This document shows, one piece after another, positions 10,078-27,495 of a DNA stretch of 29,357 bases (positions within the stretch are counted from its first letter, which is position 1; each line of letters begins with the position of its first letter). The notes beneath the pieces are model-generated. The model was given only the letters and a program-made list of their open reading frames with translations, had not been told where the DNA came from and searched no databases. The translations under genes and the position numbers were made by a program. Source of the stretch: a virus; IMG/VR virus record IMGVR_UViG_3300029258_002552, positions 1-29,357 of that record. One strand, 5' to 3'.

Positions 10078-10083
10078 GGCGGT

Positions 10084-10895: not shown

Positions 10896-10924
10896 CCATG
10901 TACGAGTAAGCAAAGGAGACGATG

Positions 10925-12088
10925 ATGTCGATCAGTAATATCAATCGGGTTCAGTTGGCCTATATTGCCGAAACGACGTTCGGCACGCAAAAGACCGGAT
11001 CGAACTTGCAAATCCTGAGAATCACGAGCGAGTCCTTCAAGCAAAATACCGAAATTGCACTGAGCAACGAAATCCGTTCGGACCGACAGCGCGCCGACGT
11101 GGTGCGCACGAAGGTCAACGTGTCCGGGGGATTTGGGTTCGAGTTGAGCTATGCGTCCTTTGACGACTTTTTAGTGGCCGCCCTGATGAGTAGCGACTGG
11201 TCGTCATTGGTAACGGTCGGGCCGGCTGCCACGATCAGCGCCGCCAGTGCGGATAATTCCTTGAGTGATTCCGGGAGCGGCTTTGGGTCGCTGGTGGCGA
11301 ATCAATGGATCAAGACATCCGGCTTCACGAACGCGGCCAATAACGGCTATTTCAAAATTGTCTCGGCGACGGCCGCCAAGATCGTGGTCTCGGGCGGAAC
11401 GCTCACCAATGAGAACGCCGGGCAATCGGTGACGATCAGGATGGGGCCGCAAATTGTCAACGGGACCACAGACACATCGTTCAATATCGAGCGGACATAC
11501 AGCGACCTGAGTAACGAGCTGGCCCTGTTCACCGGCTGCACGGTCAGTCAGTGCAGCTTGAATGTGGCCACCAACGGGATTCTCACCGGCAACTTCGATT
11601 TCCTGGGCAAAGCCGAGACGTCCGAGACGGAAAGCGGGGGCAGCGGGTACGATGCGGTCAATACGAATCCCCTGATGAATTCCATCGATCACGTCGTCGG
11701 GATTTACGAAAACCAGACGAGTATCGACGTGATTGATTTTAGCTTGACGCTCAGCAACAACCTTCGCGAGTTGATGAAGGTCGGCCACCTCGGAACCATC
11801 GATATTTCAGCCGGGGCGGTGGACGTCAGTGGGAGCTTCAACGCCTACTACGAGAGCAAGACCCTCTACGATAAGTATCTGACCTTCACCACGACGTCCC
11901 TGGCCAAGGTGGTCGAGGATGAGGACGGCAACGCTTACGTCATCGACCTGCCCGAGGTCAAAGTCACGGACAGCGGACGGCACGCCGGCGAGGGCGGCGG
12001 CAATGATTTCAAGACGCCCTGCACGTTCCAGGCGTTCCGGGATTCGAGCGAGGATGTGACGATCCGCATCGCCAAGTTCGCCGCGTAA
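10925..12088 (+). CDS. Major tail tube protein
   Basis: A 387-residue protein in the tail tube position, before the frameshifted chaperones and the tape measure. The opening NINRVQLAYIAETTFGTQKT and the later EIRSDRQRADVVRTKVNVSG match the family of phage tail tube proteins that polymerise into the tail shaft. Residues about 100-180 form an extra beta-rich insertion (ISAASADNSLSDSGSGFGSL, later YFKIVSATAAKIVVSGGTL) that resembles a surface-decorating domain. Two ATGs occur at 10922 and 10925; GGAG (10915-10918) is better spaced for 10925. It is one of the most abundant virion proteins in such phages. Confidence 0.85.
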   Translation: MSISNINRVQLAYIAETTFGTQKTGSNLQILRITSESFKQNTEIALSNEIRSDRQRADVVRTKVNVSGGFGFELSYASFDDFLVAALMSSDWSSLVTVGPAATISAASADNSLSDSGSGFGSLVANQWIKTSGFTNAANNGYFKIVSATAAKIVVSGGTLTNENAGQSVTIRMGPQIVNGTTDTSFNIERTYSDLSNELALFTGCTVSQCSLNVATNGILTGNFDFLGKAETSETESGGSGYDAVNTNPLMNSIDHVVGIYENQTSIDVIDFSLTLSNNLRELMKVGHLGTIDISAGAVDVSGSFNAYYESKTLYDKYLTFTTTSLAKVVEDEDGNAYVIDLPEVKVTDSGRHAGEGGGNDFKTPCTFQAFRDSSEDVTIRIAKFAA

Positions 12089-12131
12089 TTGCGTTATCCC
12101 ACATCACGCATCCAGAAAGGAGACAGACGCT

Positions 12132-12560
12132 ATGGGCCGAATCACAGAGATCATGGCCGACATGGAGAAGGTCGAAAAGGGGCAATGGGTCCCGTTTGCC
12201 GCGGGCATCCGGCTGTGTATCGCCAATATCAACAATGCCAAATACCGCCAGGCGAGAAAAGCGATACTCGGCAAGCACCTTAGAAGCACACGGGCAAGAA
12301 AGCTGGAACCCGATGACGTGTTGGATCTGCTCAAGCCGGCCGTGGCCAGGCACATTTTGGTGGGCTGGGAGAATCTACAGGACGAAGCCGGGTGTACGAT
12401 TGACTACAGCCCCGAAAAGGCGCTGGAGTTCTTCGAGAATCCGGCCCTGAGAGAGCTGTATATCTTCGTGGTCGAAACGGCGGGCGAAGCGGAGTGGTTC
12501 CGGCAAGAGCAGTTCGAGGACTCGGTAAAAAACTTAGAGACTGCCTCCGGTGGCAGTTGA
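12132..12560 (+). CDS. Tail assembly chaperone, short form (gpG-like)
   Basis: A 142-residue zero-frame product in the position of lambda gpG. Residues about 76-130 (GWENLQDEAGCTIDYSPEKA, FVVETAGEAEWFRQEQFEDS) are typical of the tail assembly chaperones upstream of tape measure genes. It would coat the tape measure protein and guide tail tube assembly. AAAGGAG lies upstream of ATG 12132. Close to its end is the slippery heptamer A AAA AAC, where part of the ribosomes are predicted to shift to -1 and make the longer form. The zero-frame stop TGA (12558-12560) lies immediately after the downstream hairpin. Confidence 0.88.
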   Translation: MGRITEIMADMEKVEKGQWVPFAAGIRLCIANINNAKYRQARKAILGKHLRSTRARKLEPDDVLDLLKPAVARHILVGWENLQDEAGCTIDYSPEKALEFFENPALRELYIFVVETAGEAEWFRQEQFEDSVKNLETASGGS

Positions 12561-12856
12561 CGTGGGGCAAAGAGGTGGCGTTTCTTCAAAAGCGGTTCGA
12601 CGCCGGCAAGCCGACACCGGCCCTGGAGAATAAGCCGGACGTGTTCCAGGACCTGGAGGACGTGTGGGAGTTGTTCTGGCAGCTCCACCGTTGCCGGCAA
12701 AACGGCATGGGGCCGTCCCCTCTGAGTGTGACGGATATTGTCGCATTGTTTGACATATGCGATATCTCGAAGGTCGAGCGATTGGACACCTTCGAGTTGA
12801 TTAAGGCAATGGATGTTGACTGGCTCGCATGGGCCAACGAACAGGTGAAATCTTAA
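12132..12856 (+). CDS. Tail assembly chaperone, -1 frameshift form (gpGT-like)
   Basis: Reading the gpG-like frame to AAC at 12531-12533 and then re-reading C12533 in the -1 frame gives a 241-residue fusion. It joins ...EDSVKN to LRDCLRWQLTWGKEVAFLQK and runs to the TAA at 12854-12856. The -1 part contains a helical T-like domain (VFQDLEDVWELFWQLHRCRQ) ending in LAWANEQVKS. It has no independent ribosome binding site and its open frame starts inside the upstream gene. The long form is known in lambda to bind both the tape measure and tail tube proteins. It ends directly before the tape measure ATG at 12857. Confidence 0.85.
12527..12557 (+). promoter_or_regulatory. Programmed -1 ribosomal frameshift signal
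   Basis: The heptamer A AAA AAC (12527-12533) is in the right phase of the gpG-like frame (codons GTA AAA AAC). After a six-base spacer, ACTGCC (12540-12545) pairs with GGCAGT (12552-12557) around a six-base loop. Slippery site, spacing and hairpin together are the standard design of a -1 frameshift element, and the -1 frame stays open for another 107 codons. Confidence 0.88.
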
Positions 12857-15394
12857 ATGGCAACCCTTCAATTAGCCATTGATGCACGCCATCTTCTGGC
12901 GAAGGCCAAACAGGTCGAGCGCGGCCTGTCGGGGATTCGGAGCACGGCGAGCCGGACGTTTAGCACGGTCAAGAGCGCGGCGAATATCGCCCTGGGTCCG
13001 CTGAAATTGATGATCGGCGTCACGGCGTCTCTGAAAGCGTCGATGGTGGCGCTCGGGGCGGCGTCGATCGGCGCGGCGGGCGACTATGAAATGTTCCGGC
13101 AGCAGCTTCTGACCGTCATTCGCTCGAAAAAGGACGCGGACCGGGCCTTTGCCGAGAGTATTGAGTTTTCGGTCAAGACGCCGTTCACGCCGGATGAGAT
13201 TGTCGAGACGCGGCTGGCGTTGGAAAGCGTTGGCGTGCGGGGCGGTGAAGCGGTCGAGCGGGTGGCGGAGGCGGCGGCGGCGATGAACCGAAACGTCGTG
13301 GACGTGGCTCGGGCCGTCAAGTCGATGGAAGTCGAACCCATCCGCAATCTCGGCATTATGATGGATGAGCTGTATAAGCGGGGCGTTGCGAAGGATTTTC
13401 GCCAGAGCACCGAGGCGTTCCGGGACGCGCAAGGAACCTTGATGGAGATCTTCGAGGAACGGTTCGGCGGCGGGATCGAACGCATGGCCCTGACGTGGCA
13501 GGGCCTGGTCTCGACCCTCAAAGGCGCTGTGAAGGATGTGCGGGCGGAATTCGGTGAAGGCTTCCTCGATGAGAGCAAGCTGATCGTCAACGATCTGATC
13601 GAGGCCTCGAAAGGCTTGAAGCAATACGCCGGCGAGGCGGGCCGGGAGTTCGGCGATGAAATGATGAGGGCCCGGGCCTACGTGCTGGCGGGTTTCGATA
13701 CCGCCATGAAAATGGCCGAACAGATCAAAGAAGTCTTGAAACAGGATAGCGGGATCGGCGAGGTGCTGCTCGAAGCCTTCAGGCTCGGGACCACGGTACT
13801 GGGCAAGGGGATAGTGACGGCCTTCGAGGTCTCCCTGCCGTTGTGGAAAACGATTGGCACGATCTTGGGGCAGGGCGTGCTGGATGCCGTGATGCAATCC
13901 GGGATCCCCGGCGCTGATTATGCAAGAGGCAAAGCCATTCAGAAGAATCTGAGCGGCATGTCGGCGTCCGAACTGAGGAAAATGTCGATCGCCCGCGGGT
14001 ACGATATTGATTTCACTACCCCGGACTATCGAACGATCAAAGGGGGAGGCTATCAACAGGTCGGCGTTAAACCGAAGAGCGCCGAGGCGCTGGCTGCGGA
14101 TCTGGCGAAAGAGATTCAAAAGCTCTCCATCGAGGAGCAACTGGCTTTTGCTCAGTTCGATCCCGGCCGGGCCATTGCTGATAGCATCGAGGCGTCGCGG
14201 ACCAAGATGGCCGCGTCCGTCAAGTCGTTGGGGGCCGACATGGTGGCCGAACTCCAAGCGTTCGAGAACAATCTGGCGAAGGCGTCGGGGACCGACGTGA
14301 TTGATTTGACGGAGGATTTCAAGGGCAACCTGCAAGCCCGCCTCGATGAAGGCGAAAAGATGATCACGCAATGGCGACAAACACTTGGTGCGGAGATCCA
14401 GACGGCCGGCGCCGATGGGGCGCGCGCGGTCGGTGCCGAAACAGAGAACCTTGCGGCCCAGACTGCCTTGACCACACTGGATATCGCCCAGGCATACGCC
14501 CGGATGTATGACGAGATGGACGCGCGCAGCGCGGCGAGCTTCGAGGCCCGGCGACGGGTGCTGGATGAGGAAATCAAAGAATACCAGAAAGTCGTTAAAG
14601 ATACCACGGTGCTGGCTGAATACAGGGCAAGAAAGCTGGAGGAGCTGGCGATTGAGCAGGCTCGATCCTCAGACGCTGTATTGGACGGCTTCGCAGCGGG
14701 CCTTCAGGACGTGGAGCGGGAAATGACGACGCTCGGCGAGATCGGGTACCAGACCGCGTTCACGATACGGGATGAGTTGGCCGGGGCGTTCGATACGCTG
14801 ACGATGGAAGGGGCGAGCTGGCGGGATGCGATGACGGGATTCTTTAAGGACGTCGGCCAGGCGTGGCTGCGGATGCTCAATCAGATGGTGGCTGAGGCGT
14901 TGATGACACAGGCGATGCAGCCGGCGTTCAACTGGATCGGCGCGGCGGTCAGCGCATGGGCGTCCTCGGCGATTCCGACCGGCGCGCCGTCGCCGGGCTT
15001 GGGGCAGCCGGGCGTCTCGGGGGTGCATGTACCGCACGGGGGCGGGATCATGGGAAAAACGAACTTCCATCAGCGCGTCGTGTCACCGGGGCTGTTCACG
15101 CACGCCCCGCGTTTTCATTCCGGATTGGGCTCCGATGAAATGGCGGCGATTTTGCGTCGGGACGAACACGTACTGACCCCGAATCAGATGAATACGCTCG
15201 TCAAGGCGGCGGCAAGCGGCCCGTCGAACGGCGAGGTCCATATCCACATGAACAATCAAAGCGGGGTGCGCCAGGAGATCACGAAACAGCAGGAATATAT
15301 GTTCAGCGACCAACGGCACATCGACATCACGTTACAGGCGTTGGAAACCGACAGCAGGCTCCGCCGGGCGGTCAAGCAAGCGGTCAGGCGGTAG
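12857..15394 (+). CDS. Tail tape measure protein
   Basis: An 845-residue protein after the chaperones, the longest of the core tail genes. It starts with a helical segment (ATLQLAIDARHLLAKAKQVE) and a glycine/alanine-rich hydrophobic stretch near residues 50-75. A second hydrophobic zone is at about 310-346 (GKGIVTAFEVSLPLWKTIGT) and a third at about 670-706. The region 95-130 (AFAESIEFSVKTPFTPDEIV) matches the tape-measure N-terminal domain of many phages. The C-terminus (RFHSGLGSDEMAAILRRDEH and NQMNTLVKAAA) is the lambda-type ending. It sets tail length and helps channel formation during ejection. At the usual 1.5 angstrom per residue it implies a tail shaft of roughly 125 nm. The ribosome binding site is weak, so translation probably follows the preceding frameshift product. 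Confidence 0.92.
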   Translation: MATLQLAIDARHLLAKAKQVERGLSGIRSTASRTFSTVKSAANIALGPLKLMIGVTASLKASMVALGAASIGAAGDYEMFRQQLLTVIRSKKDADRAFAESIEFSVKTPFTPDEIVETRLALESVGVRGGEAVERVAEAAAAMNRNVVDVARAVKSMEVEPIRNLGIMMDELYKRGVAKDFRQSTEAFRDAQGTLMEIFEERFGGGIERMALTWQGLVSTLKGAVKDVRAEFGEGFLDESKLIVNDLIEASKGLKQYAGEAGREFGDEMMRARAYVLAGFDTAMKMAEQIKEVLKQDSGIGEVLLEAFRLGTTVLGKGIVTAFEVSLPLWKTIGTILGQGVLDAVMQSGIPGADYARGKAIQKNLSGMSASELRKMSIARGYDIDFTTPDYRTIKGGGYQQVGVKPKSAEALAADLAKEIQKLSIEEQLAFAQFDPGRAIADSIEASRTKMAASVKSLGADMVAELQAFENNLAKASGTDVIDLTEDFKGNLQARLDEGEKMITQWRQTLGAEIQTAGADGARAVGAETENLAAQTALTTLDIAQAYARMYDEMDARSAASFEARRRVLDEEIKEYQKVVKDTTVLAEYRARKLEELAIEQARSSDAVLDGFAAGLQDVEREMTTLGEIGYQTAFTIRDELAGAFDTLTMEGASWRDAMTGFFKDVGQAWLRMLNQMVAEALMTQAMQPAFNWIGAAVSAWASSAIPTGAPSPGLGQPGVSGVHVPHGGGIMGKTNFHQRVVSPGLFTHAPRFHSGLGSDEMAAILRRDEHVLTPNQMNTLVKAAASGPSNGEVHIHMNNQSGVRQEITKQQEYMFSDQRHIDITLQALETDSRLRRAVKQAVRR

Positions 15395-15431
15395 AACATA
15401 AAACGACAGTCATTACGCAAGGAGCATGGTT

Positions 15432-15824
15432 ATGAGTTTCTCAAACTATATGGAAAATGAATTGCTGGATCATCTGTTTGGCAAGGGGGCCTATACCCCG
15501 CCGACGATTTACGTGGGCCTGTCCACGGCGGATCCGGGGGAGGATGCGTCGGGACTGGCGGAGCCGTCGGGCGGGGCGTATGCGCGGGTGTCCACGGCGG
15601 CGTCTGATTGGACCACGGCCTCGGCCGGGGCGCTGTCCAATGCGAACGAAATCAGCTTCCCCGAAGCGACGGGGTCGTGGGGGACCCTTACGCACTTTGC
15701 CGTGTTCGATGCGCTGTCGGGCGGCAATATGTTGGGCAGCGGCGCGCTGAACGCATCGCAGGCGGTGGCCAGTGGTAACACCGTGTCTTTCCAGGCGGGC
15801 GATCTGGATGTGACGCTGGACTAA
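15432..15824 (+). CDS. Small tail protein, tail fiber-like family
   Basis: A 130-residue protein starting MSFSNYMENELLDHLFGKGA and continuing TPPTIYVGLSTADPGEDASG and GLAEPSGGAYARVSTAASDW. This pattern belongs to a widespread family of small phage tail proteins often labelled tail fiber protein, whose exact role is unclear. The repeated beta strands suggest a small beta-sandwich. AAGGAG (15419-15424) is 7 bases from ATG 15432 and only 1 base from ATG 15426, so 15432 is chosen. It sits between the tape measure and the tail-tip genes. Confidence 0.78.
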   Translation: MSFSNYMENELLDHLFGKGAYTPPTIYVGLSTADPGEDASGLAEPSGGAYARVSTAASDWTTASAGALSNANEISFPEATGSWGTLTHFAVFDALSGGNMLGSGALNASQAVASGNTVSFQAGDLDVTLD

Positions 15825-15862
15825 AATCGAACCGTCTCAGTGACGATGCTTAGGAGTGCGCC

Positions 15863-16405
15863 ATGGCGGATATTCTTGTTTTCTGGGGGCCGCATTGGAT
15901 GGAGTCGGCCACCGTCCATCAACTCAGCGAAGCCCACTTAGGCAAACAGTATCGCGAAAAAGTCGAGTCGCGGTTGCAGCGGGGCGACATCTGCACGGTC
16001 GGGCGGGACGGGCAGTATGTCCATGCGAAGCTCAAGAAACTGCGGTGCATCCAGGTGTCTGATTTTCCGAGCAAAGAGGCGGCGGCATTAACCTGTCCGC
16101 TGGAACGGCCTCGCACGTCGGACGAACGGGCCGGGGACACCGACGAAGAAGAGCGGCTGATTGCAGCCGAAAACAGCCAGCGACGTCGGAGGCAACGCCC
16201 TTTGATGGGATCGGACGAAGTGACGGCGTTGCGTGAAGGGATCCGGCAAGACCAGGCGGGGCGGCGGGTCATGGTCCGCCAGAAGTCACGCTATATCGAC
16301 GTGAGCCTGCTCGATGACAAGATCGTTCAAAAGCTTGACGCCCGAGAGCCGGTTCGTATGACGTGGGCCCAATTCAAATCGCTCATCTTTATCAAGGGGG
16401 TGTGA
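15863..16405 (+). CDS. Hypothetical tail-region protein
   Basis: A 180-residue protein that I do not recognise. The N-terminal 65 residues look like a compact alpha/beta domain (MADILVFWGPHWMESATVHQ, RLQRGDICTVGRDGQYVHAK). A polar, probably disordered arginine-rich linker (EENSQRRRRQRP region) follows, and the C-terminal part (LDAREPVRMTWAQFKSLIF) is again folded-looking. TAGGAG precedes ATG 15863. Its stop overlaps the next ATG (TGATG), tying it to the tail-tip operon. Confidence 0.62.
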   Translation: MADILVFWGPHWMESATVHQLSEAHLGKQYREKVESRLQRGDICTVGRDGQYVHAKLKKLRCIQVSDFPSKEAAALTCPLERPRTSDERAGDTDEEERLIAAENSQRRRRQRPLMGSDEVTALREGIRQDQAGRRVMVRQKSRYIDVSLLDDKIVQKLDAREPVRMTWAQFKSLIFIKGV

Positions 16406-18045
16406 TGATCGAAGTGTATGTCGATCCCTCGGCGACCGGCGCCGGCGACGGAAGTAGCTGGGCGGACGCCTATACCGATTTAGAAACGGCGAACTACGAA
16501 TATCAAACCGACTTGGTCACCGCGCAGGAGTGCCTTCGGTTCAACTGCCGACGGGGGGACGGGGCGAGCAACAATCCGACCAGTGTGTCCATTACCGGGC
16601 ATGTGACCAGCGCCGACTATTATGCCATTTTTGAGTATGACGGCAGCCCGTTCGATCAACATGCGTTTCACATTGAAGGGACGCAGCCGTCCGGGGGGTC
16701 GTGCCTGGGCTTCACCGAAGATTTTATCGTCTGTCGGGGCTTTTACGTCTATTGCACACATCAGACGGCCAATTTGGTCGGGATCGGGCACCAGGGGGTG
16801 GCGGCGGCCAATCATTGCACGATTGAAAACTGCGTCATTCGCGGAACGTCCAACCCCACGTACAACACACGGGGCTATTATGGCAACGCGAGCATCAACC
16901 TGCCGAATTTGACGATACGCAATACCTTGATCTACGACATGGGATCGACCCTGTTCGGCGCGGGCATCAATGGGAAATACAACGAAGTCACGGTCCAGAA
17001 TGTGACGATCGTGGATACATGGCGCGGCGTGTGGTTGACGGAGGCCGGAACGGATATCACCATGACGAATGTGCTGGTGAAGGCGTCCGCCGATCAGGAT
17101 TATGTGCTGAACAATGAGGTCGTGGCCAACTACAACACCTGTGATTACTGCGCGGGTGAGGATGCGACGTGCGACCCGTCGAATTATCATTTCGGCTCCC
17201 ATTGCCGGCCATCCCAGACGTTTACGTTTGCCGATACGACGTATCACTTGGCGGCGACGGACACGGGGGCCTTTGGGTTGGGGCAGAACTTAGCGACGGT
17301 CTTTACGATTGACCTGGACGGGGACACGCGGGCCGTCTGGTCGATTGGGGCGGACGATGGGCCGGCCGGTGTCATCCAGTTATCCGGTGCGGTCGTTGGA
17401 ACATCGGGCCTGTCCGGGGGGATCTCGATCACACATAGGGTGGGCGGTACGTTGGCCGGTCACTCGTCGTGGGCCGGAACGGTGACCCTCGAACTGTCCG
17501 ACGTGGACGTGGCCGGGCGTCTCCAGGGGGCGGCGGGGCTGTCGGGGCGCTTGAGCGTGCAACGGCCCATGGGCGGAACGCTGGCCGGGCGTGCGACATT
17601 GAGCGGGGAGGCGTCGTTTCTTGATTGGGTGTTGTTGAAAGGCACGATCTCGGGCCGTGCGTCCCTGGGTGCCATTATGAATTTTGTGGACTGGTTTCCC
17701 TGGTACACACGACGGCCCAGGGCGACGGATTTTGTTCATCAACCCGGCCCCGAGACGGCGATGATCGCCCCGGTGTCCAGCGGCACGCCCCTGGTCGGTG
17801 AAGGCTGTGTCTTTGACGCGCAGCCATTCTTTTTCGCATTGCCCTATGTGTCCCAGGCTGTTAAGGAGAGCTATTTTTCGTTCTATAGGAACTATCGGGA
17901 TCGTAGCTTTTATTTCAGAAATCCCCAGGACGCCACAGGGTACAAGGTCGTCTTTGCCGAACCGCCGACCTGCCGAATACACGGCCGGGACGGTCTTTGG
18001 CTCATGGAATTTCATCTCATCCGAGAAACCAGCGGCACGTTTTGA
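16405..18045 (+). CDS. Tail-tip protein 1: beta-helix domain, repeats, gpM-like C-terminus
   Basis: A 546-residue modular protein. Residues 1 to about 324 form a domain starting EVYVDPSATGAGDGSSW with CRRGD, EYDGSP and WRGVWL landmarks. Alternating strands such as LTIRNTLIYD and VTVQNVTIVD are typical of a right-handed parallel beta-helix. Residues about 324-425 hold GTLAG-type repeats. From FVDWFPWY (about 426) to the end is a domain whose pattern (YFSFYRNYRDRSFYFRNPQD, then W-x-M-x-F near the end) resembles lambda gpM-like minor tail proteins. The beta-helix may bind or cut cell-surface glycan, but no catalytic residues are assigned. AAGGGGG precedes ATG 16405. It is paralogous to the next two genes. 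Confidence 0.72.
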   Translation: MIEVYVDPSATGAGDGSSWADAYTDLETANYEYQTDLVTAQECLRFNCRRGDGASNNPTSVSITGHVTSADYYAIFEYDGSPFDQHAFHIEGTQPSGGSCLGFTEDFIVCRGFYVYCTHQTANLVGIGHQGVAAANHCTIENCVIRGTSNPTYNTRGYYGNASINLPNLTIRNTLIYDMGSTLFGAGINGKYNEVTVQNVTIVDTWRGVWLTEAGTDITMTNVLVKASADQDYVLNNEVVANYNTCDYCAGEDATCDPSNYHFGSHCRPSQTFTFADTTYHLAATDTGAFGLGQNLATVFTIDLDGDTRAVWSIGADDGPAGVIQLSGAVVGTSGLSGGISITHRVGGTLAGHSSWAGTVTLELSDVDVAGRLQGAAGLSGRLSVQRPMGGTLAGRATLSGEASFLDWVLLKGTISGRASLGAIMNFVDWFPWYTRRPRATDFVHQPGPETAMIAPVSSGTPLVGEGCVFDAQPFFFALPYVSQAVKESYFSFYRNYRDRSFYFRNPQDATGYKVVFAEPPTCRIHGRDGLWLMEFHLIRETSGTF

Positions 18046-18046
18046 T

Positions 18047-19744
18047 ATGGCACAAGTGGACCTCTATGTGGATCCCTCGGCGACCGGGCTGGGGGACGGA
18101 ACAAGTTGGACCCATGCGTACACGTCATTGGAGATCGCGGTCAACGATAACGAGCAGGATCTCGTCTCGGCCCAGATCAATATCGTCTTTCACTGTCGGC
18201 GGGGGGACGGTGTGACCAACGACGTCCAAACCGGCTCGACGGTCATTCACGGCTGGACCACCAGCGCCGCGTACAACCTGCTGATTGAATACGACGGGTC
18301 CCCGCACGATGTGAACGCCTTCCATTTACATTCATCCGGTTCGGCGGCGACGGTGAACTGCCAGGAGGATTATGTCACCTTTCGGGGGGTGTATGTGTAC
18401 CTGACGAGTCTCACGGCGGCCAACAATGTGCTCTATATCAACGGACAGAACGCGGCCAATGCCATTGGGGTGGACCGTTGTGTGATCCGGGGGCCGAATG
18501 ACGCGACATACAAATCCCGCTGTGTGCAACTGGCGGATGACGATACGGTTATCGAGCTACGAAACTGCCTGATTGTTGACGCCGGCCAGGTGGCGTTTTC
18601 GGCGGGCGTGACGGCCCCGGCGGCCCCGACGGTGACGATGCAGAATTGTACCGTGGCCAACTGTTGGCGGGGGATCTGGCTGAGTAGCGACGGGACGGAC
18701 ACCACGCTTACGAATATCCTGGTGACCGGCTCGGACAGCAACGATTATACTTTCTACAACGCGATACAGTGCTGGGGGCACATCAACTATTGCGCCAGCG
18801 AGGATGATACCGCCGACGATGTGGCGTCAGGGACGGGCAACCGCACCAACCAGACGTTCACCTTCGAGGGGGCGACCTACCACTTGGATGAGGCCGATGC
18901 GGGCGCGCTGGATGTCGGCACGGACCTTTCAGCAAGCTTCACGGTGGACATCGACAATCGGACACGGCTTCGCTGGTCGATCGGCGCCGACGATGGGCCT
19001 CCGGAGGCGTTCAAGGTGTCGGGGACACTTGCGGGTCAGGCGACGCTCAGTGCGACGGCCAAAGTGACCACGCCGTTCAATCTGGCGGGAACGATGGCCG
19101 GTACGAGCGGCCTCACCGGCGCCGTGCATATCACAATGGCTCCGGCGGGGACGATTGCGGGAACGTCGTCTTTCAGTGCAACGGCGACCTTGACCGGTCC
19201 GGTGTATGTCTCGGGCACACTGGCCGGTCAGTCCATGCTCTCGGCCTTTTGTAATATCCGCTATCCGTTGTCGGGCACGCTGGCGGGCCAGTCCGGGCTG
19301 TCTGGAAGAATTTTCTTTCAAGGGCAATGCTGTATCGCCGGCGTTCTGGCGGGTCAGGCGTCCTTGAGTGCCATCATGAACTTTGTCAACTGGTTTCCCT
19401 GGTACACCGCCCGGCCGGTGATTGACCATTTCAAGGAGGAAATCGACGAGCACGCGACCGGGGTGTATCAGTATGCGAGCGGACGGCCGTTGGTGGTGGG
19501 CCGATTCACCCTGGCCCCTCATGTTTTGAGCTTTACCCTGCCAGACGTTTCAGGGACCGAGAGGACGAACTACTTTTCGTTTTATCAAGAGAAAAAGAGC
19601 GAACCCTTCTTCTTTAGAAATCCCCAGGACAGCCACGCCTACAAAGTCATATTTGATCGGGAACCGACGTGTGAACTGGACGGTCGGGCGGACCGTTGGG
19701 TCATGGGATTTCAGCTAAGGCAAGTGGCGGAGGTGGCGTTCTAA
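18047..19744 (+). CDS. Tail-tip protein 2: beta-helix domain, repeats, gpM-like C-terminus
   Basis: A 565-residue paralogue of the preceding protein. It has the same N-terminal block (DLYVDPSATGLGDGTSW, FHCRRGD, EYDGSP, NCWRGIWLSSDGTD, WSIGADDGP) over residues 1 to about 322. Six GTLAGQ-type repeats follow at about 322-440. The same FVNWFPWYTARP linker (from about 445) leads into a gpM-like C-terminal domain with NYFSFYQEKKSEPFFFRNPQ and a final WVMGFQL strand. ATG 18047 begins one base after the previous stop and has no strong ribosome binding site, so it is probably translated by reinitiation. The long upstream extension of the frame to 17798 is an overlap shadow. Having two gpM-like genes in a row is unusual and suggests tandem duplication. 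Confidence 0.72.
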   Translation: MAQVDLYVDPSATGLGDGTSWTHAYTSLEIAVNDNEQDLVSAQINIVFHCRRGDGVTNDVQTGSTVIHGWTTSAAYNLLIEYDGSPHDVNAFHLHSSGSAATVNCQEDYVTFRGVYVYLTSLTAANNVLYINGQNAANAIGVDRCVIRGPNDATYKSRCVQLADDDTVIELRNCLIVDAGQVAFSAGVTAPAAPTVTMQNCTVANCWRGIWLSSDGTDTTLTNILVTGSDSNDYTFYNAIQCWGHINYCASEDDTADDVASGTGNRTNQTFTFEGATYHLDEADAGALDVGTDLSASFTVDIDNRTRLRWSIGADDGPPEAFKVSGTLAGQATLSATAKVTTPFNLAGTMAGTSGLTGAVHITMAPAGTIAGTSSFSATATLTGPVYVSGTLAGQSMLSAFCNIRYPLSGTLAGQSGLSGRIFFQGQCCIAGVLAGQASLSAIMNFVNWFPWYTARPVIDHFKEEIDEHATGVYQYASGRPLVVGRFTLAPHVLSFTLPDVSGTERTNYFSFYQEKKSEPFFFRNPQDSHAYKVIFDREPTCELDGRADRWVMGFQLRQVAEVAF

Positions 19745-21819
19745 TGGCACAAATAGACGTCTATGTCGATCCTTCGGCGAGCGGAAACGGGGACGGAACA
19801 AGCTGGACGGACGCCTATACGTCCCTCGATACGGCGCTCGATGACAACGAGCAGGATTTGGTGACGGCCGCGGACCATATTGTCTTTCATTGCCGGCGGG
19901 GGGACGAAAGCACCAACGACGGAGGCAGTACCACGCTGGCTGTCAATGGCTGGACCACCAGCGCCGATTACGATATTGTGATGGAGTACGATGGGTCCCC
20001 GCTTGATGCGAAGGCGTATCATTTACACGTCACCGGCGACGAGTGCCTGAATATCAATGAAGATTATGTCACGTTACGGGGCTTGTATCTGTACACGCCC
20101 ACCACCACCGCCAATACCGATGTGGTGTACGTGAGCAACGTGAACGCCTCGAACGCCGTTGTGATGGATCGTTGCATTGTCCGGGGGCCGGATAACGACA
20201 GCTACAAGACCCGGCTGGTGTATGTGGTCTCGGCCACTGTCGATCTGACGCTCCGCAACTGCCTGCTCTATGAGGGAGGGCAGGCGGCGTTTTCAGCCGG
20301 GGTGAATTCCGGGGCGGCGTGCGATGTGACGATGCAGAACTGCACTATCGCGAACTGCTGGCGGGGGATCTGGCTCAGCGCGGCGGGGGTCGAAGCGACC
20401 TTAACGAATGTCCTGGGCGACGATTGTACGAGCAGCACGTTCTGTATCGACAACACGAATTCGCAGAACAACGGACAGATCAATTACTGCGCAACGGAGG
20501 ATGACACGGCGGATGATATCGCCGGTGGGACGGGCAACCGTATTTCACAGACCTTCACCTTCAGCGACACTGTGTATCACCTGGATAGCACGGACACGGG
20601 CGCGTTGGGGTACGGTAACGATTTGTCGGCCACGTTCACGGTGGACATCGACAACGAGACACGATCCGGGTGGTCCATCGGGGCCGACGACGGGCCGGCC
20701 GATACGATGGAGCTGGACGGGACGCTGGCGGGTAGCGCTACTCTGTCCGGGACGGCATCGGTAGCGCGGAATGTGGCGGGGACGTTGGCGGGGCAGTCCG
20801 GACTGTCCGCAGCGCTCACCGGGGGGGATCAGCTTTATCCATCGGGCAGGCTGGCGGGGACGGCCACGCTGACGGCCCATCTGACCCGTGGGGGTCCGAT
20901 TGAGCTGGCGGGGACGATGGCGGGGGTCAGTACGCTGGCCGGAACGCTCACTGCCCCGGCCATCGAAACGAGTATTCCGCCCGCTATGCTGGCAGACATG
21001 ATTCAGCCGAACACGTCCGGGACCTGGATGTGGTTGTGCCAGTTCGTGGTCCCGACGCAAACATCGCGCTATTTAGCGCGCAATACAGAACCCGTGGTGT
21101 ACGCCGGACAGTCATACAATGCGTCCAATTTCAAGGTGGGCCGTCAGCCGTTTTGCGGAGACGGCTCGATTCCCCGCGTCATGTTGCAGGTGAGCAATGT
21201 CAATCAGCAGATGGAGCGGATCATCAATGCCACTCAGGGGGCGCTGGGCGGGCAGGTAAAGCTGATTCGCGTGAACAGCCGGTTCTTGACCAACCCGATT
21301 ACCGCCCTGGAATACGATTATCAGGTGTTGGCCTCGCAAAGCGACCGGCAATGGGCCACGTTTCAATTAGGTATTCCCAACCCCTTCACGCAGCCGGCGC
21401 TGTTGAGGCACTATTCGTGCAGTATGTGTCCCTACGCGACGCCGTCCCTCTACCGGGGGCCGGAGTGCGGGTACAGTCCCCACTTGACGGTGACGGGCGT
21501 TACGGTCACCGGGCCGGCGGTGCCTATCTATGTCTGGACGATTGGAATAAACCATCAGTTAGAGACGGGGGACAGGATCGAACTGGCCGGCATCACCGGC
21601 ATTACACCGAGCTTGAACGGGACCTGGACGATTACGGTCCTTGCCGGCAACTATTTTTCGCTCGATGGGTCCGACGTCGGCAGCTACAGCGGGTCCTACG
21701 GCGGGGGCGGGACGATTGCCTTTGCCGACTGCGACGGGTCCATTGAGGCGTGCCGGCGGCGTAATGGAGCCCGCTTTAACGGCGAGTTGGGCCTGGACCC
21801 CTCCGTGACACAGGTTTGA
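19744..21819 (+). CDS. Tail-tip protein 3: beta-helix domain fused to gpL-like Fe-S domain
   Basis: A 691-residue protein. Residues 1 to about 322 are the third copy of the beta-helix domain (DVYVDPSASGNGDGTSW, FHCRRGD, NCWRGIWLSAAG, WSIGADDGP), followed by four GTLAG-type repeats to about 409. Residues 410-691 resemble lambda gpL: an N-terminal strand region (FVVPTQTSRYLARNTEPVVY, FKVGRQPFCGDGSIPRVMLQ) and a cysteine domain with Cys559, Cys562, Cys575 (YRGPECGY), Cys663 and Cys670. gpL of lambda binds an iron-sulfur cluster at the tail tip. Here about 80 residues (577-660) with HQLETGDRIELAGITGI are inserted between the third and fourth cysteines. GGAGGTGG precedes ATG 19744, which overlaps the previous TAA. 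Confidence 0.78.
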   Translation: MAQIDVYVDPSASGNGDGTSWTDAYTSLDTALDDNEQDLVTAADHIVFHCRRGDESTNDGGSTTLAVNGWTTSADYDIVMEYDGSPLDAKAYHLHVTGDECLNINEDYVTLRGLYLYTPTTTANTDVVYVSNVNASNAVVMDRCIVRGPDNDSYKTRLVYVVSATVDLTLRNCLLYEGGQAAFSAGVNSGAACDVTMQNCTIANCWRGIWLSAAGVEATLTNVLGDDCTSSTFCIDNTNSQNNGQINYCATEDDTADDIAGGTGNRISQTFTFSDTVYHLDSTDTGALGYGNDLSATFTVDIDNETRSGWSIGADDGPADTMELDGTLAGSATLSGTASVARNVAGTLAGQSGLSAALTGGDQLYPSGRLAGTATLTAHLTRGGPIELAGTMAGVSTLAGTLTAPAIETSIPPAMLADMIQPNTSGTWMWLCQFVVPTQTSRYLARNTEPVVYAGQSYNASNFKVGRQPFCGDGSIPRVMLQVSNVNQQMERIINATQGALGGQVKLIRVNSRFLTNPITALEYDYQVLASQSDRQWATFQLGIPNPFTQPALLRHYSCSMCPYATPSLYRGPECGYSPHLTVTGVTVTGPAVPIYVWTIGINHQLETGDRIELAGITGITPSLNGTWTITVLAGNYFSLDGSDVGSYSGSYGGGGTIAFADCDGSIEACRRRNGARFNGELGLDPSVTQV

Positions 21820-21834
21820 CAGAAAGGAGATGGT

Positions 21835-22200
21835 ATGGACCACGAACAGGCGCAGCAACGACGCGAACGGATTGAAGCGATGGTCAATCAACGTTATATC
21901 GGGGGCGGTGAGGTTCGGCCCTGTTGGGCCTTCTGTCAGGAGATCCTGCGTCTGTATGACCAGGTGTTGCCGGACGATCCGCAGGGGGGATTACGGAAAA
22001 TCGAGCAGCCCCACGTGCCCTGTGTGGTCCTGTTCGCCATAGCGGGGGACTGGCACGCCGGCGTGGTCTGGCCGGACGGATTGCACTTTATCCATGCAGC
22101 GCCGACGGACGAAAAGGGCTTGGCCCGGTACGTCCGGCAGGACCGTCTGACCCTGGAACCGTGGTCGCTTGTCCTGAAGGGGTATTATGGGGTGGCGTAA
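21835..22200 (+). CDS. NlpC/P60-like cysteine peptidase, gpK-like tail protein
   Basis: A 121-residue protein with the compact NlpC/P60-type layout. The nucleophile is probably Cys30 in RPCWAFCQEIL, followed by a helix; His74 lies in DWHAGVVWPDGLHF and His87 in IHAAP. In lambda-like phages gpK sits between gpL and gpJ and carries this fold, with a likely role in tail-tip assembly or local murein cleavage. This copy is the peptidase-like half only; the JAB/MPN half seen in lambda gpK is absent. AAAGGAGAT gives it one of the best ribosome binding sites in the window. Its end overlaps the gpJ-like gene by 14 bases. Confidence 0.82.
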   Translation: MDHEQAQQRRERIEAMVNQRYIGGGEVRPCWAFCQEILRLYDQVLPDDPQGGLRKIEQPHVPCVVLFAIAGDWHAGVVWPDGLHFIHAAPTDEKGLARYVRQDRLTLEPWSLVLKGYYGVA

Positions 22201-25200
22201 AAAAAAGCCGATTGACGTCCATGTGTTTCACCATGCCGTCGAACGCTGTCCGGTGACGGCGCACCAGGTCCCGTATCGCCGGCAGCGGTTGGGCGTCCTG
22301 GTGGCCAAGTATAAGACGGCCGAGGAGGTCTCGGTCTATGTGGATAGGCAGGCTGTCGAGCAGACACAGTGGCGTCGCTTGCGGATCAGGCCGGGCCAGC
22401 GGGTGGATATCCTTCCGAAGCCGGGGTTCCTCAATCTCATTCTCCAAGCGGCGTGGTGGGCCTTCGTGCATATCGGCCTGCCGATGGCGATCAGTTATGG
22501 CGTGGGCCGACTTATTTCAGGCGACTATGAACCGGCGGATAACAGCCTGGATGCGTCCGTCCATCATGCCTGGACGCCGCGGACCCTGCAACGAGAGGGG
22601 GTGCCGGTGCCTCGCGCCTGGGGCCGCTGTCCACACGCCGGCAATATCGTAGCCCGGTGGACGGACGTTAACGACAACGGCGACGAAGTGTTGTATCTGC
22701 TCGTCTGCTATGGGGAAGGCCCCTATGCCGGGCCGGTGGACGGTCAGTTGACTCTCAACGATCAGTTGTCCAGCCAGCTAAGCGGCGTGACGACCGACAC
22801 TCGGCGCGGGACGCTCGATCAGGAGGTGATTGCCGGCTTCGATCGGCATAAGCTGGAGTACCAACAGCAGGTCGAAATCACCAACGCCGGCGGGTGGGTG
22901 TACTTTACGACGCGGAACAATTTTTTCGATAATATCGAATTCACCGTCGAGTGGCCCAAGGGCCTGCGTCATTGGAGCAAATCGGGCGCGGCGGGAATGC
23001 TCTCGATGGAGTTCGTTGTGCAAATTGCGGAAAAGGGATCGACGGACTGGGTCACGATTTTTAACCCCACGATCGTCGGGACCCAACTGTCTCCGATGTA
23101 CCGGGCGTACTCGGTCGAGGAGAACGAAGCGGGCTTTACCGTGGAGCGGGGCACGCAATACACGCTGCGGTTCAGAAAATATTCGGGGGATAGTGCCAGT
23201 GAGCGCACGGTCAATGATTTCGCCTTGCGGTCGGTTCGAGAAGTGGTGGACGTGGCGTTTACACGGCCGGGCAAGGTGCTCCGCAGTATTATCGCCGTGG
23301 GGACCGAGCAGCTTTCCGGCGATATCAACATCAAAGACGTTTGGGACGGCCGGATCGTCAGCGTCTATGATGGAGCGAGCTGGTCTCTGCAATACAGCCG
23401 CAACCGGGCCTGGGTCGTGTTCGATGCCCTGACCCAACCGGTCATTGCCGGCAACGGCGACGACGTGCCGTACCGTATCGTTCGGTATGAGGGGGTGAAT
23501 CCGGCCAACGTGGATACGGCCTTGTTCTATGAATGGGCGCAATGGTGCGACCAGCAGGTTCCCGACGGCGCGGACGGGACCGAAGCACGAATGCCCTGTG
23601 ATTATATCGCCGATTCCGACATGGATGTGTGGACCCTGGCGAATCGCCTGGCGCACATCGGACGCATGAATTTGTATTGGTCGGGGACCACGTTGACGGG
23701 CTGGCTGGACGCGGCGGTGTCCTCTGTCACGGATCTGGTCACCTTCGAGAATATGGTGGACGCCGACGAGTGGAAGAATAGCTGGGCGACGGCCGAGGAG
23801 CTGGCGGGCCGGATGAACGTCTGGTACCGGGACGCGGTGCAAGGGTACGAGCGCAAGAAGGTGCCCGGACACAATCACCTGGCCGGCAACATCAAGCGGA
23901 CGGTGGAGATTGAAGGGGACGGGGTGACGAGCCGGACGCTGGCCGAGCGCGTTAAAAATCATGCCCTCAAGCGCAATCAGCTCATTCGCAACGCCAACCA
24001 GTTTCGCCAATACAAGGATGCGTTCCGGTACCGGCTGGGGCAGGTGGTGCGCGTCCAAAGCACGGCGGCCGAGTGGGGCGACGCCTATCGGGTGGTGGCG
24101 GCGGTGGACGCTCAGACGGTGAGATTGGACCGTTCGGTCACCGCGTCGGTCGGCGAGGCCCTGTACCTGCGGACGTACAATGCGAGCACGAAAACGATCC
24201 AGGTCGAAGCCTATACGATTGCCGCCGTCGTCGGCGCCGAGGTGACTATCGAGGAGACGTTTATCGTCACGCCGCTGGCCGGATGGGTGGCGGCGACCGG
24301 GGGGACGGTGCTCAGACGGATCATTAAGCTGGAGGGTGAGAGTGAGCACTTCGTCACGCTGGACGTGGAGACCTACGATACAGACCTGTTCGGCAGCGAC
24401 GCTATCGAGCCGTACAATCCGAACCCCGGATACGTGTGGGCGCCGGCGCCCAAGAAACTGCATCAATACCCGACGAAGCGGGACGTGCTGGATTTGATTG
24501 CGGCGTACCAAACGCCGGCCCTCGATACGGATACACCGGCGCTGAGCAATATCGCGTGGGCGGGCAACGAGGTTGATACGGTGACCTGGTCGGCCACCGA
24601 CAGTGACGAGTCCCTGCAATTGCGCTACAAGGGAACCACCTATGCGATTGCGGCCGGATCAACGACGGATCGATTTATTGTGTGGATTCCCGAGGCCCCG
24701 ACGCTCTTTTCGACCACGGACGACGAGGACGTGGCGCAGGCGGCCCTGCAGAACGGCGCGTGGTTTGTGTGTGAGAACCGAGACGGCGTGCCGTTTGTGG
24801 CACAACCGTTCCGATTGATTTGGGCGGGCTGCGTGCAGACGGGCACCTTGACGGCGAAACTGGCCATTATCGGCGCGTTGGCGGTCGGAACGGGAGAAAT
24901 TCAGGACTATGCGACGGCCTATCCGTTCAGCGCCTATACCGGAAACGGCGTCGAAATCACGCCAGCGGATACCGACGTGACGATCCAGCAGGTCTCATTC
25001 ACGTCAACGGGCCGGGCGGTGAAGCTGCATTTCGGCTCGCGCGTCAGTTCCTATGGAACGCCGGAATATTTGTACTCGCTCTTTATGGACGGCACCGCCG
25101 AGGCGAATAAGATCTGGAATTCCGGGACGATCAATTTTCCCTACCAGGCCCGGCGGCATTGTTCGTTCAGCACGACACATACGCCGCCGGCCGGGGCGCA

Positions 25201-25288
25201 CACCTATTATCTTCGCTTGCAGGCCAGCGTTGCCAATAGTACCTATGCCGACCGCCGTTATCTGTCGGGGATGGAGGTCAAGAAATGA
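22187..25288 (+). CDS. Tail tip / host specificity protein (gpJ-like, with gpI-like N-terminus)
   Basis: A 1033-residue protein. Residues 1-80 form a small basic domain ending RIRPGQRVDILPKPG, and residues 81-108 are a hydrophobic, glycine-containing segment (ILQAAWWAFVHIGLPMAISY), together resembling gpI. At about 133-158 the gpJ landmark LQREGVPVPRAWGRCPHAGN begins the central tip fold, which continues with YLLVCYGEGPYAGPVDG and many beta strands to about residue 750. The last 120 residues (AVKLHFGSRVSSYGTPEYLY, then RRHCSFSTTHTPPAGAHTYY) look like a terminal beta-sandwich and are the best candidate for receptor contact. AAGGGG precedes ATG 22187. The protein closes the tail tip and decides host range in lambda-like phages. 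Confidence 0.85.
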   Translation: MGWRKKKPIDVHVFHHAVERCPVTAHQVPYRRQRLGVLVAKYKTAEEVSVYVDRQAVEQTQWRRLRIRPGQRVDILPKPGFLNLILQAAWWAFVHIGLPMAISYGVGRLISGDYEPADNSLDASVHHAWTPRTLQREGVPVPRAWGRCPHAGNIVARWTDVNDNGDEVLYLLVCYGEGPYAGPVDGQLTLNDQLSSQLSGVTTDTRRGTLDQEVIAGFDRHKLEYQQQVEITNAGGWVYFTTRNNFFDNIEFTVEWPKGLRHWSKSGAAGMLSMEFVVQIAEKGSTDWVTIFNPTIVGTQLSPMYRAYSVEENEAGFTVERGTQYTLRFRKYSGDSASERTVNDFALRSVREVVDVAFTRPGKVLRSIIAVGTEQLSGDINIKDVWDGRIVSVYDGASWSLQYSRNRAWVVFDALTQPVIAGNGDDVPYRIVRYEGVNPANVDTALFYEWAQWCDQQVPDGADGTEARMPCDYIADSDMDVWTLANRLAHIGRMNLYWSGTTLTGWLDAAVSSVTDLVTFENMVDADEWKNSWATAEELAGRMNVWYRDAVQGYERKKVPGHNHLAGNIKRTVEIEGDGVTSRTLAERVKNHALKRNQLIRNANQFRQYKDAFRYRLGQVVRVQSTAAEWGDAYRVVAAVDAQTVRLDRSVTASVGEALYLRTYNASTKTIQVEAYTIAAVVGAEVTIEETFIVTPLAGWVAATGGTVLRRIIKLEGESEHFVTLDVETYDTDLFGSDAIEPYNPNPGYVWAPAPKKLHQYPTKRDVLDLIAAYQTPALDTDTPALSNIAWAGNEVDTVTWSATDSDESLQLRYKGTTYAIAAGSTTDRFIVWIPEAPTLFSTTDDEDVAQAALQNGAWFVCENRDGVPFVAQPFRLIWAGCVQTGTLTAKLAIIGALAVGTGEIQDYATAYPFSAYTGNGVEITPADTDVTIQQVSFTSTGRAVKLHFGSRVSSYGTPEYLYSLFMDGTAEANKIWNSGTINFPYQARRHCSFSTTHTPPAGAHTYYLRLQASVANSTYADRRYLSGMEVKK

Positions 25289-25623
25289 ATTATACGGTGT
25301 ATGATGGCGACGGTAAGATTTTACGGCATGGAACCTGCGCGGGTGAGGATATGGACTTGCAAGCGAACGCGGGCGAATACGTCATGGCCAGTGATGCCGA
25401 TGATGCCCTGCAGAACGTCGCGTTCGACGGCTTCGACGTCACCGGTCAGCCGGTGTCCCCGCGCCTGGTCGCTCAGTCGGCGGCTGAAAAGGCACAATGG
25501 CGCAGGCCGCCGGTGCCCGAGGAGGACGCACCGGTCGTCATTAAGAAAAAGGACTGGGACGAACTGCAAGCGCGGCTGGCCGCGTTGGAGAAGGAAACCC
25601 CTTCCTCTCGACTCAAAGCGTAA
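25285..25623 (+). CDS. Small tail-associated protein, unknown
   Basis: A 112-residue protein. The first 60 residues form short beta strands (MNYTVYDGDGKILRHGTCAG) of the kind found in small phage tail-fiber accessory proteins. The last 50 are charged and helical (KKKDWDELQARLAALEKETP). ATG 25285 overlaps the gpJ-like stop (ATGA) and GGAGGT lies upstream, so it is co-translated with the tip protein. A role as tail-tip accessory or fiber chaperone is plausible from position only. Confidence 0.7.
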   Translation: MNYTVYDGDGKILRHGTCAGEDMDLQANAGEYVMASDADDALQNVAFDGFDVTGQPVSPRLVAQSAAEKAQWRRPPVPEEDAPVVIKKKDWDELQARLAALEKETPSSRLKA

Positions 25624-25639
25624 GGAAGGATCCATCGCC

Positions 25640-25849
25640 ATGGCGACTCGCTTAGAAGAACAGAAGGCACTCCACGCACAGGTCTGTCGGTTGTGGGATC
25701 GTTACCGGGACCTGGTGAAAGCTCAATTGGTCTTGAAAGGGGACGTCAGCGATTTGGAGCGTCAGCTCGACGTTGCCGGCCGAAAGTTGATCGCCTTGTA
25801 CCGCGCCAGCGATGCCGGTCTGGACGCAGAGGGGCCGGACACGCCATAG
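25640..25849 (+). CDS. Small coiled-coil protein, unknown
   Basis: A 69-residue protein, MATRLEEQKALHAQVCRLWD followed by RYRDLVKAQLVLKGDVSDLE, almost entirely helical with heptad spacing and no membrane segment. AAGGAAGGA precedes ATG 25640. The open frame extends upstream to 25301 only as a shadow of the previous gene. It is the last gene before the terminator at 25883 and so closes the late structural operon. Function is unknown; lysis accessory or tail roles cannot be separated. Confidence 0.65.
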   Translation: MATRLEEQKALHAQVCRLWDRYRDLVKAQLVLKGDVSDLERQLDVAGRKLIALYRASDAGLDAEGPDTP

Positions 25850-25882
25850 CTACAAATTTATGTGTCTTTCCTATTATGGAGA

Positions 25883-25933
25883 AACCGGCGCACTGAAACC
25901 CTGCGTAGGGGCGGCTAAGAACGCCGGTTTTTT
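25883..25933 (+). terminator. Intrinsic terminator of the late operon, with competing stem
   Basis: AACCGGCG (25883-25890) pairs with CGCCGGTT (25922-25929), and the arm ends in six T residues (25928-25933). Inside, CCCT (25899-25902) pairs with AGGG (25907-25910). A competing stem pairs GGCGCAC (25887-25893) with GTGCGCC (25934-25940), which would break the terminator stem. The element lies 33 bases after the last tail-region gene. Confidence 0.8.
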
Positions 25934-26111
25934 GTGCGCCCGTTGCCCACCTGATGAACCGAAGGAAGGTTTGATTTCGAGAACTGAAATTCGGAACGTA
26001 TTAACTGATCGTAAAACAGTCACCACGTCGTCACTTCGTAAAAATATTTTCGCGATAAGCACTATTTTTAGGGGTCGTAACCTATCACACAACAAAAGTT
26101 TAGAGGCCGAT

Positions 26112-26177
26112 TAAGATAAATTTATGGCGAGTACATAAAATCTTATTGACATCCCATAAGATATACGGTAAGATATA
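26112..26177 (+). repeat. TAAGATA repeat cluster around the promoter
   Basis: TAAGATA occurs at 26112-26118, and the longer TAAGATATA at 26157-26165 and again at 26169-26177, exactly 12 bases apart. An inverted copy TCTTAT (26141-26146) faces ATAAGA (26156-26161) across nine bases that contain most of the -35 box. The copies flank and overlap the promoter, as expected for binding sites of a regulator, though low-complexity AT DNA could produce some of them by chance. Confidence 0.6.
26146..26174 (+). promoter_or_regulatory. Sigma70-type promoter for the small-gene operon
   Basis: A perfect -35 box TTGACA (26146-26151) is followed after 17 bases by TAAGAT (26169-26174), a four-of-six match to the -10 consensus. 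Transcription would begin near 26181, about 30 bases before the first small gene. The surrounding DNA is AT-rich and lies just after a terminator. Confidence 0.72.
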
Positions 26178-26213
26178 TTCATAATAAAAACCAAATCATT
26201 TAAGGGTAGCACC

Positions 26214-26348
26214 ATGACCATTCCAATTCTCATTGCAGCGATAAGTCTGTACGCATACCAGCTTTATCATCAAAGGCCGCGCGTGAGCCGTCAGGTCGAA
26301 TGGCTGAAGAAGTCCATAAAAACCGCCGATTCCTATCGGCTTGTCTGA
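26214..26348 (+). CDS. 44-residue membrane-anchored microprotein
   Basis: First gene after the promoter. ATG 26214 is preceded by AAGGGTAGCACC and the frame closes at TGA 26346-26348. The product opens with a hydrophobic helix (MTIPILIAAISLYAYQLYHQ) and continues with a basic tail (RPRVSRQVEWLKKSIKTADS), so it probably sits in the inner membrane with its tail in the cytoplasm. It is too short for standard ORF cut-offs. Its leading position in a phage operon would suit a small host-directed protein, but the function is unknown. Confidence 0.6.
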   Translation: MTIPILIAAISLYAYQLYHQRPRVSRQVEWLKKSIKTADSYRLV

Positions 26349-26360
26349 AAGGTTAGCACA

Positions 26361-26552
26361 ATGGCAAGTAGCAGATTAACGATAGCGGACGCAACCACGC
26401 TCATAGCCTATGCAACGGCACTGGAGAGCCTTGACAGGTATTCGGATACCGAATTCCAAAAGGTCTTTCAAGTCACCAAGCGAGAAGCGGTATCCAATGT
26501 CGCTAAGTGTCTCCGCCGGTACGTTGCCAACAGAACAGGAGAGGGGGCGTAA
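26361..26552 (+). CDS. Hypothetical small helical protein
   Basis: A 63-residue, all-helical protein (SRLTIADATTLIAYATALES, then VTKREAVSNVAKCLRRYVAN) with a basic C-terminal half. AAAGGTTAGCACA precedes ATG 26361 and resembles the leader in front of the previous gene. It is not recognised. The basic helix could contact nucleic acid. It is followed without a gap by the next gene. Confidence 0.65.
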   Translation: MASSRLTIADATTLIAYATALESLDRYSDTEFQKVFQVTKREAVSNVAKCLRRYVANRTGEGA

Positions 26553-26819: not shown

Positions 26820-26821
26820 AC

Positions 26822-27403: not shown

Positions 27404-27495
27404 GTCCCGCCGACCTGGGCGGCTGCAATGTCGCCCACCGCCTTAGCCCCCGCAGGTGGGGCCCTATAGAAACCTGTTGTACAGGAGAGACGGTT
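27404..27495 (+). other. Intergenic hairpins before the 60-residue gene
   Basis: GGCGG (27418-27422) pairs with CCGCC (27438-27442), and GCCCC (27446-27450) pairs with GGGGC (27458-27462) around a seven-base loop. There is no T run after either, so termination is not expected. A ribosome binding site AGGAGAG lies at 27483-27489. The hairpins may act in mRNA processing or stability. Confidence 0.5.

Follow-up and report, generated by a model that had tools for sequence, protein, structure and literature searches.

Three consecutive genes of a virus, here denoted A, B and C, encode proteins that share an N-terminal domain; the genes form an operon in tail-tip gene order, the product of the third ends in a lambda gpL-type module, and this last fusion is conserved in a relative. 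We consider it probable that the three are tail-tip proteins of a lambda-type siphophage, A and B being a Dit/gpM-like ring pair and C the hub, with beta-helix arms that would point outward and meet host glycans. The window, that is, the whole stretch of DNA analysed, is the complete record IMGVR_UViG_3300029258_002552 (29,357 bases), and the host of the virus is probably a planctomycete bacterium.

Gene order and the shared N-terminal domain

Comparison with PHROG identified terminase, portal, major head protein, head-tail adaptor and tail terminator genes in this phage, and the open frames, together with the Pfam and PHROG matches, give the order tape measure, A, B, C, K-like gene and J (Table 1). 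The product of 10922-12088 belongs to phrog_290, which is annotated 'minor tail protein' in PHROGs, and we take it for the tail tube protein. The genes overlap or almost abut at the A, B and C junctions (TGATG from 16403, TGATATG from 18043 and TAATG from 19742). Two small genes separate the tape measure gene from A: the one at 15426-15824 is of the Gp80 type (Pfam PF23140, 5.9e-44; phrog_240, 'head protein'), and the one at 15863-16405 has no family match in Pfam or PHROG. The K-like gene gave no match in the Pfam search. Residues 229-311 of the major head protein (7588-8754) match phrog_1302, 'distal tail protein', at 3.7e-10, and are perhaps a mobile inserted domain.

An assembly artefact was rejected because the copies of the domain are just 45-58% identical, and a second contig agrees with the window: IMGVR_UViG_3300017989_006424 (L069; 47,113 bases) contains positions 11208-29357 (18,150 bases) at 99.994% identity. 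This longer contig also carries tRNA-Glu(ttc) and tRNA-Met(cat) genes at 2188-2337, as well as ParB-like genes.

Over the first ~322 residues, identity is 45.4% between A and B (142/313), 47.8% between A and C (150/314) and 58.1% between B and C (187/322), and the respective local scores of 646, 741 and 1004 compare with maxima of 66, 85 and 77 obtained in 200 shuffles each. Five landmark motifs follow in the same order at similar positions of A, B and C: YVDPSA (5, 7 and 7), CRRGD (48, 50 and 50), EYDGSP (77, 81 and 81), WRG(V/I)WL (206, 207 and 206) and WSIGADDGP (312, 310 and 310). A sequence-only reading of this DNA had described three linked genes with a common N-terminal domain of this length, and these comparisons bear it out. 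The domain is followed by a linker of G-x-L-A-G-type motifs spaced 20-23 residues. Beyond the linker, A and B have modules of ~120 residues that are 40% identical, and C has a different one of ~287 residues. The arrangement had been called a tandem triplication; the domain indeed occurs three times, but the likeness of A and B extends from end to end, so that a better description is duplication of one gene (A/B), with the domain and linker present on gpL as well.

Table 1. Features of the tail-tip region, in window positions
Feature	Positions	Strand	Basis
Tape measure protein	12857..15394	+	phrog_23940, 2.3e-6
Gene A, 546 aa	16405-18045	+	open frame
A N-terminal beta-helix-type domain, residues 1-322	16405..17370	+	alignment, landmarks
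A linker, 5 G-x-L-A-G-type motifs	17371..17667	+	
A C-terminal module, probably Dit/gpM-like	17668..18045	+	40% identity to B module; fold search; weak profile match
Gene B, 565 aa	18047-19744	+	open frame
B N-terminal beta-helix-type domain, residues 1-322	18047..19012	+	Pfam Beta_helix; model, fold comparison
B linker, 6 motifs	19013..19378	+	
B C-terminal module, probably Dit/gpM-like	19379..19744	+	identity to A module; weak profile match
Gene C, 691 aa	19744-21819	+	open frame
C N-terminal beta-helix-type domain, residues 1-322	19744..20709	+	58% identity to B
C linker, 4 motifs	20710..20955	+	
C gpL-type hub module	20956..21819	+	Pfam Phage_tail_L, phrog_18, hhalign, cysteines
K-like gene, 121 aa	21835..22200	+	NlpC/P60 type by eye and position
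J-like central tip protein	22187..25288	+	phrog_31, 6e-77; Pfam FNIII-A_GpJ and Phage-tail_3

The shared domain is most likely a right-handed beta-helix, as judged from profile matches and modelling. Pfam Beta_helix is found in B with 27.4 bits (cut-off 25.9), the domains of A and C giving no Pfam match above cut-off and A reaching DUF4957 at E 0.0035, below cut-off, with no comparable match for C. The structure model of B, built on a five-row alignment, has a mean pLDDT of 51.5 (about 70 over residues 1-230), and its Foldseek comparison with the PDB produced nothing at E 0.001 or better; the best rows listed are pectin methylesterases, tailspikes and a pectate lyase, all of which are beta-helices. 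After realignment, the 50 rows listed, with polysaccharide lyases and phage tailspikes among them, show identities of 8-17% and Z-scores of 17.2-20.9, a measure that runs high for repeat folds. The viral structure models that match the domain include 'pectate lyase superfamily' and tail-fibre entries, and a sequence search of the PDB with the domain gave no match at E 1. The beta-helix claimed from the sequence alone is thus upheld by a Pfam match above cut-off in B (not in A or C) and by a modest model that superposes on beta-helices; the fold comparison supports the fold and says nothing of function.

The C-terminal modules

Sequence comparisons support a hub module of the lambda gpL type, with a candidate Fe-S cysteine domain, at the C-terminus of C, in agreement with the sequence-only reading. 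The module matches Pfam Phage_tail_L (PF05100) with 29.6 bits (cut-off 25) and phrog_18 at 8e-13, and its score of 30.9 bits against TIGR01600 is under the equivalog cut-off of 70.75. With hhalign, it aligned to four gpL proteins at E 1e-5, as against 0.045-0.64 for three other sets. A search of the PDB with the gpL profile returned lambda protein L at E 0.005, with an antibody chain ranking above it (0.0036) and many more antibody chains listed. Cysteines are located at residues 559, 562, 575, 663 and 670 of C, and, by eye, lambda gpL Fe-S cysteines 173, 182, 205 and 212 fit C 562 (or 559), 575, 663 and 670; the motif ECGYS is kept between C and lambda, and the last two cysteines are 7 apart in both. 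Between cysteines 575 and 663 lies an E1_FCCH-like stretch (residues 603-658; Pfam E 1e-4, below cut-off), which we do not count as special because, by eye, the relatives too are extended at this place.

The C-terminal modules of A and B are likely, albeit not certain, to be Dit-like. We read the two proteins as a Dit/gpM-like pair because lambda gpM ranks first in a Foldseek search with a poor model of the A module and because the genes are located between the tape measure and gpL. This model (pLDDT 44.5) has a strand, a helix and three strands at its end. Of 350,542 chains, the top match is 8iyk_E, from the lambda tail tip (E 0.036, TM 0.31/0.34, rmsd 13.6), a chain of 109 residues, which is also the length given for gpM in an excerpt of PMC10721106; next come tail chains of Sf11 and one chain from the tail tip of T1. 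When the model was realigned, the first 13 of the 50 rows were all phage or pyocin virion proteins, with Z at most 4.0; lambda gpM reached 3.2, level with unrelated cereblon rows.

Neither copy of the A/B module has a Pfam or PHROG match, PF05939, DUF2460 and the gpM PHROG included, and hhalign against the L092 Dit, lambda gpM, a gpM set and DUF2460 Dits gave no significant result. The Dit family that precedes DUF1833 genes (L092 and five phages) aligned at E 0.009 along 93 columns; this was the lowest value among five sets and comes to about 0.05 when corrected for the number of tries; the other sets, two of which were controls (gpL and K), gave 0.23-0.49, and two single sequences gave 0.16 and 0.62. 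Shuffle tests compared A and B with seven Dit proteins and singled out L099 alone, whose scores were attained by 1 and 3 of 500 shuffles; those of lambda gpM were attained by 69 and 349 of 500. The gpM-like ends that had been proposed for A and B are thus weakly supported: the fold search and the position favour them, but no significant sequence match to gpM does. In viral_contigs, the module was found only in the same phage; a search of the L009 genome, run without a positive control, yielded none at E 1, the best of 2,350 frames of other loci had E 1.1, and the PDB searched by sequence gave two unrelated chains (E 0.5-0.6). The single match in 392 planctomycete genomes (E 0.001) contains an internal stop and was taken as chance.

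Relatives and spread of the domain

When the same fusion was sought in relatives, as the sequence-only reading had proposed, the C-type fusion was found in a Planctomycetota MAG of the Sedimentisphaerales (L009), where it is followed, as in the window, by the K-like gene and J. The C orthologue is 67% identical overall (64.7% in the domain, 63.4% in the linker, 81.6% in the N-terminal part of gpL and 59.7% in the cysteine part), the K-like gene 71.9% (87/121) and J 74%; the comparison covers C onward, given that the L009 contig stops inside C and any A and B genes would lie beyond its end. By eye, the genes beyond the tail-tip genes look cellular, which suggests a prophage. The tree of the five domains has the form (A,(B,(C,L009))), with support of 79 and 73, and lends moderate support to a scenario in which gpL would have acquired the domain from the B side before the split between the window phage and the L009 phage.

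Among 25 loci that share a tail protein with the window phage, none matches the domain profile, only 15 of them reaching 5 kb or more past the tail-protein gene. In 13 of these 15, we recognized by eye a gpL-type gene of 158-354 residues without N-terminal extension; no such gene was recognized in L094 and L095. Three relatives were submitted to Pfam, which confirmed a Dit of the DUF2460 type and hub genes with PF09931+PF09356 for L074 and L079, and DUF1833 for L092. Planctomycete genomes with gpL-profile matches (L057, L058 and L065) have frames of 199-300 residues, two gpL-type proteins of this group showing no gpL match in Pfam, and G252 shows, by eye, no more than a plain gpL-type gene. 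Of 50,697 phage records, none matched 10000-29357 by megablast or C by tblastn, B matched two records at E 0.6, and the C-terminus of A gave six unconvincing records (E 0.6 to 8).

The full domain occurs in one of the 161 genomes of the order and one of the 397 of the class, the L009 genome both times. At E 1e-5, the domain profile matches 31 of the 161 Sedimentisphaerales genomes; the L009 match covers domain positions 23-322, and the other matches listed are partial, mostly from position 6. The start motif YVD..A.G..DGSSW..AY is present in all 23 Sedimentisphaerales frames listed, many of which show by eye a preceding hydrophobic stretch of the kind seen in secreted proteins, and a motif IGA(D/Y)(D/E) follows 326-354 residues on in at least 3 of the 16 frames with the strict start motif, a lower bound because the loci are of 1,500 bases and the frames partial. 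We infer from these motifs that the domain has common ancestry with secreted proteins of the likely hosts. A distant copy (27-32% identity) is carried by a protein with other repeats on the phage contig L007, where its gene is flanked by one for a terminase and one that weakly matches Mu F. The location in relatives, which the sequence-only reading had named as a check, is thus of both kinds, within the tail-tip order in L009 and outside a tail-tip cluster in L007, and the latter indicates that the domain itself is mobile. A Gp80-type gene was suspected before the L007 domain and was not confirmed.

Several other genes in the related tail-tip regions deserve mention. In a planctomycete prophage, a gene of about 540 aa between tape-measure-like and gpL-type genes (L067:2794-4485, minus strand) encodes, as judged by eye, an extensive N-terminal portion that contains a single Asp-box-like motif, perhaps together with a gpM-like end; it has no family match and is a candidate for another decorated Dit. 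A stretch of ~90 residues at the C-terminus of the Dit reappears N-terminally in the product of the gene that follows in L079, L082, L084, L086 and L091, that is, in 5 of the 6 loci tested (28-36% identity, 0 of 500 shuffles as good); in the sixth, L089, 92 of 500 shuffles were as good. Domain sharing among tail-tip neighbours may accordingly be a habit of this group. By eye, there are also a Hint/intein-type insertion near the N-terminus of the J-like gene (L087:12646-14430 and L088:18085-19857), a gene that has Kelch-like repeats and no Pfam match and is located between Dit and gpL (L086:7311-8510), and a glycosyltransferase-like gene among the tail-tip genes (L087:10110-11186, also in L088 and L089).

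Interpretation and known systems

Under the model that we favour, the C-terminal modules of A and B would be a pair of Dit/gpM-like ring proteins in the tip, C would serve as the hub, its gpL-type module bearing an Fe-S cysteine domain, and each of the three would hold its beta-helix domain outward on the repeat tether. These domains would bind, and possibly cut, surface glycans of the planctomycete host, perhaps with different specificities. The presence of two gpM-like genes, one more than in lambda, speaks against a ring pair; the two could alternate in one ring, be stacked or be used in turn. In lambda, according to an excerpt of PMC10721106, gpM occurs in two conformers, and six copies of it make up a three-fold ring located above three gpL; the Dit to hub ratio given for mycobacteriophages in part of PMC13252515 is 6:3. 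Modelled on the two gpM conformers, an arrangement can be imagined in which A and B alternate three and three in one ring above three C, with nine tethered arms of three kinds derived from a module shared with secreted host proteins; so specific a picture is unlikely to be right.

That only C is a decorated hub, whereas A and B are spikes or accessory proteins that dock through their C-terminal modules, the true Dit being encoded elsewhere, appears rather unlikely to us. The A/B module does lack a significant sequence link to gpM, and the two small genes before A, the second without a family match, leave space for another tip protein; however, lambda gpM ranks first in the fold search, the first small gene matches Gp80/phrog_240 rather than Dit, and A and B directly precede gpL, where 13 relatives carry a Dit- or hub-type gene (by eye).

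It is quite conceivable, if not the leading option, that the modelled beta-helix domains work as depolymerases, digesting the exopolysaccharide of the host, and not simply as binding arms: their closest structural neighbours are pectate and alginate lyases, pectin methylesterases and depolymerase tailspikes, but the identities in the rows listed are 8-17%, and a fold by itself shows no function. Improbable, in our view, is a role of the domains in virion stability or in contact with shed host material, with J alone recognizing the receptor. Such a role would agree with the presence of J, which has a C-terminal region of its own, and with the position of the L007 copy, yet there are three copies at the tip, the one on C is kept in a relative, and no other tail-fibre gene was noticed by eye downstream of J on the longer contig.

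If the proposed model is correct, a siphophage has acquired multiple arms for receptor binding, not through separate fibre genes but by attaching one adhesin-type domain to ring and hub proteins, and its tail tip may thereby grip or cut host-surface sugars at several points. It would also offer a first handle on host recognition by a group of Planctomycetota phages and open to testing the question of whether a single ring can accommodate two Dit paralogues.

The closest parallel is with the evolved Dit and Tal proteins of siphophages, ring or hub proteins of the tip that, as reviewed in part of PMC7291167, carry carbohydrate-binding modules thought or shown to bind host sugars. By analogy, the N-terminal domain of A and B may work like an evolved-Dit module. 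In the strict sense, however, an evolved Dit has a carbohydrate-binding module inserted in a loop (PMC7291167, in excerpt), whereas here a beta-helix-like domain is N-terminal and common to A, B and the gpL-type protein. The resemblance to lambda lies in the gene order and in the gpL-type module with its four Fe-S cysteine positions; lambda gpM and gpL, as described in an excerpt of PMC10721106, are small and without such a domain, with one gpM gene instead of the two gpM-like genes of the window phage. The baseplate Dit of Bxb1 is similarly enlarged, by three additional CTE-like domains, but these are of another kind, and their sharing with the hub protein is not described in the excerpted text of PMC13252515. 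Variable gpL ends and N-terminal additions on gpJ are likewise in print (PMC13243795, in part). Beta-helix tailspikes, such as those of Sf6 and Fri1 gp49, have a fold like the arm of A, B and C and are separate spike proteins, unfused to gpL-type or Dit-type modules, whereas the secreted beta-helix proteins of Sedimentisphaerales have the same start motif and no tail-tip part, the matches listed being partial except for the L009 phage gene.

The literature searched (titles, abstract openings and passages) contained no report of one domain on both Dit-type and gpL-type proteins, and to this extent the earlier claim that no such system had been described stands; decorated Dits as such are well described (PMC7291167, in excerpt). 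The present tail tip therefore looks like an unusual version of these decorated or enlarged Dits, the new element being a single domain placed on both Dit-type and gpL-type proteins.
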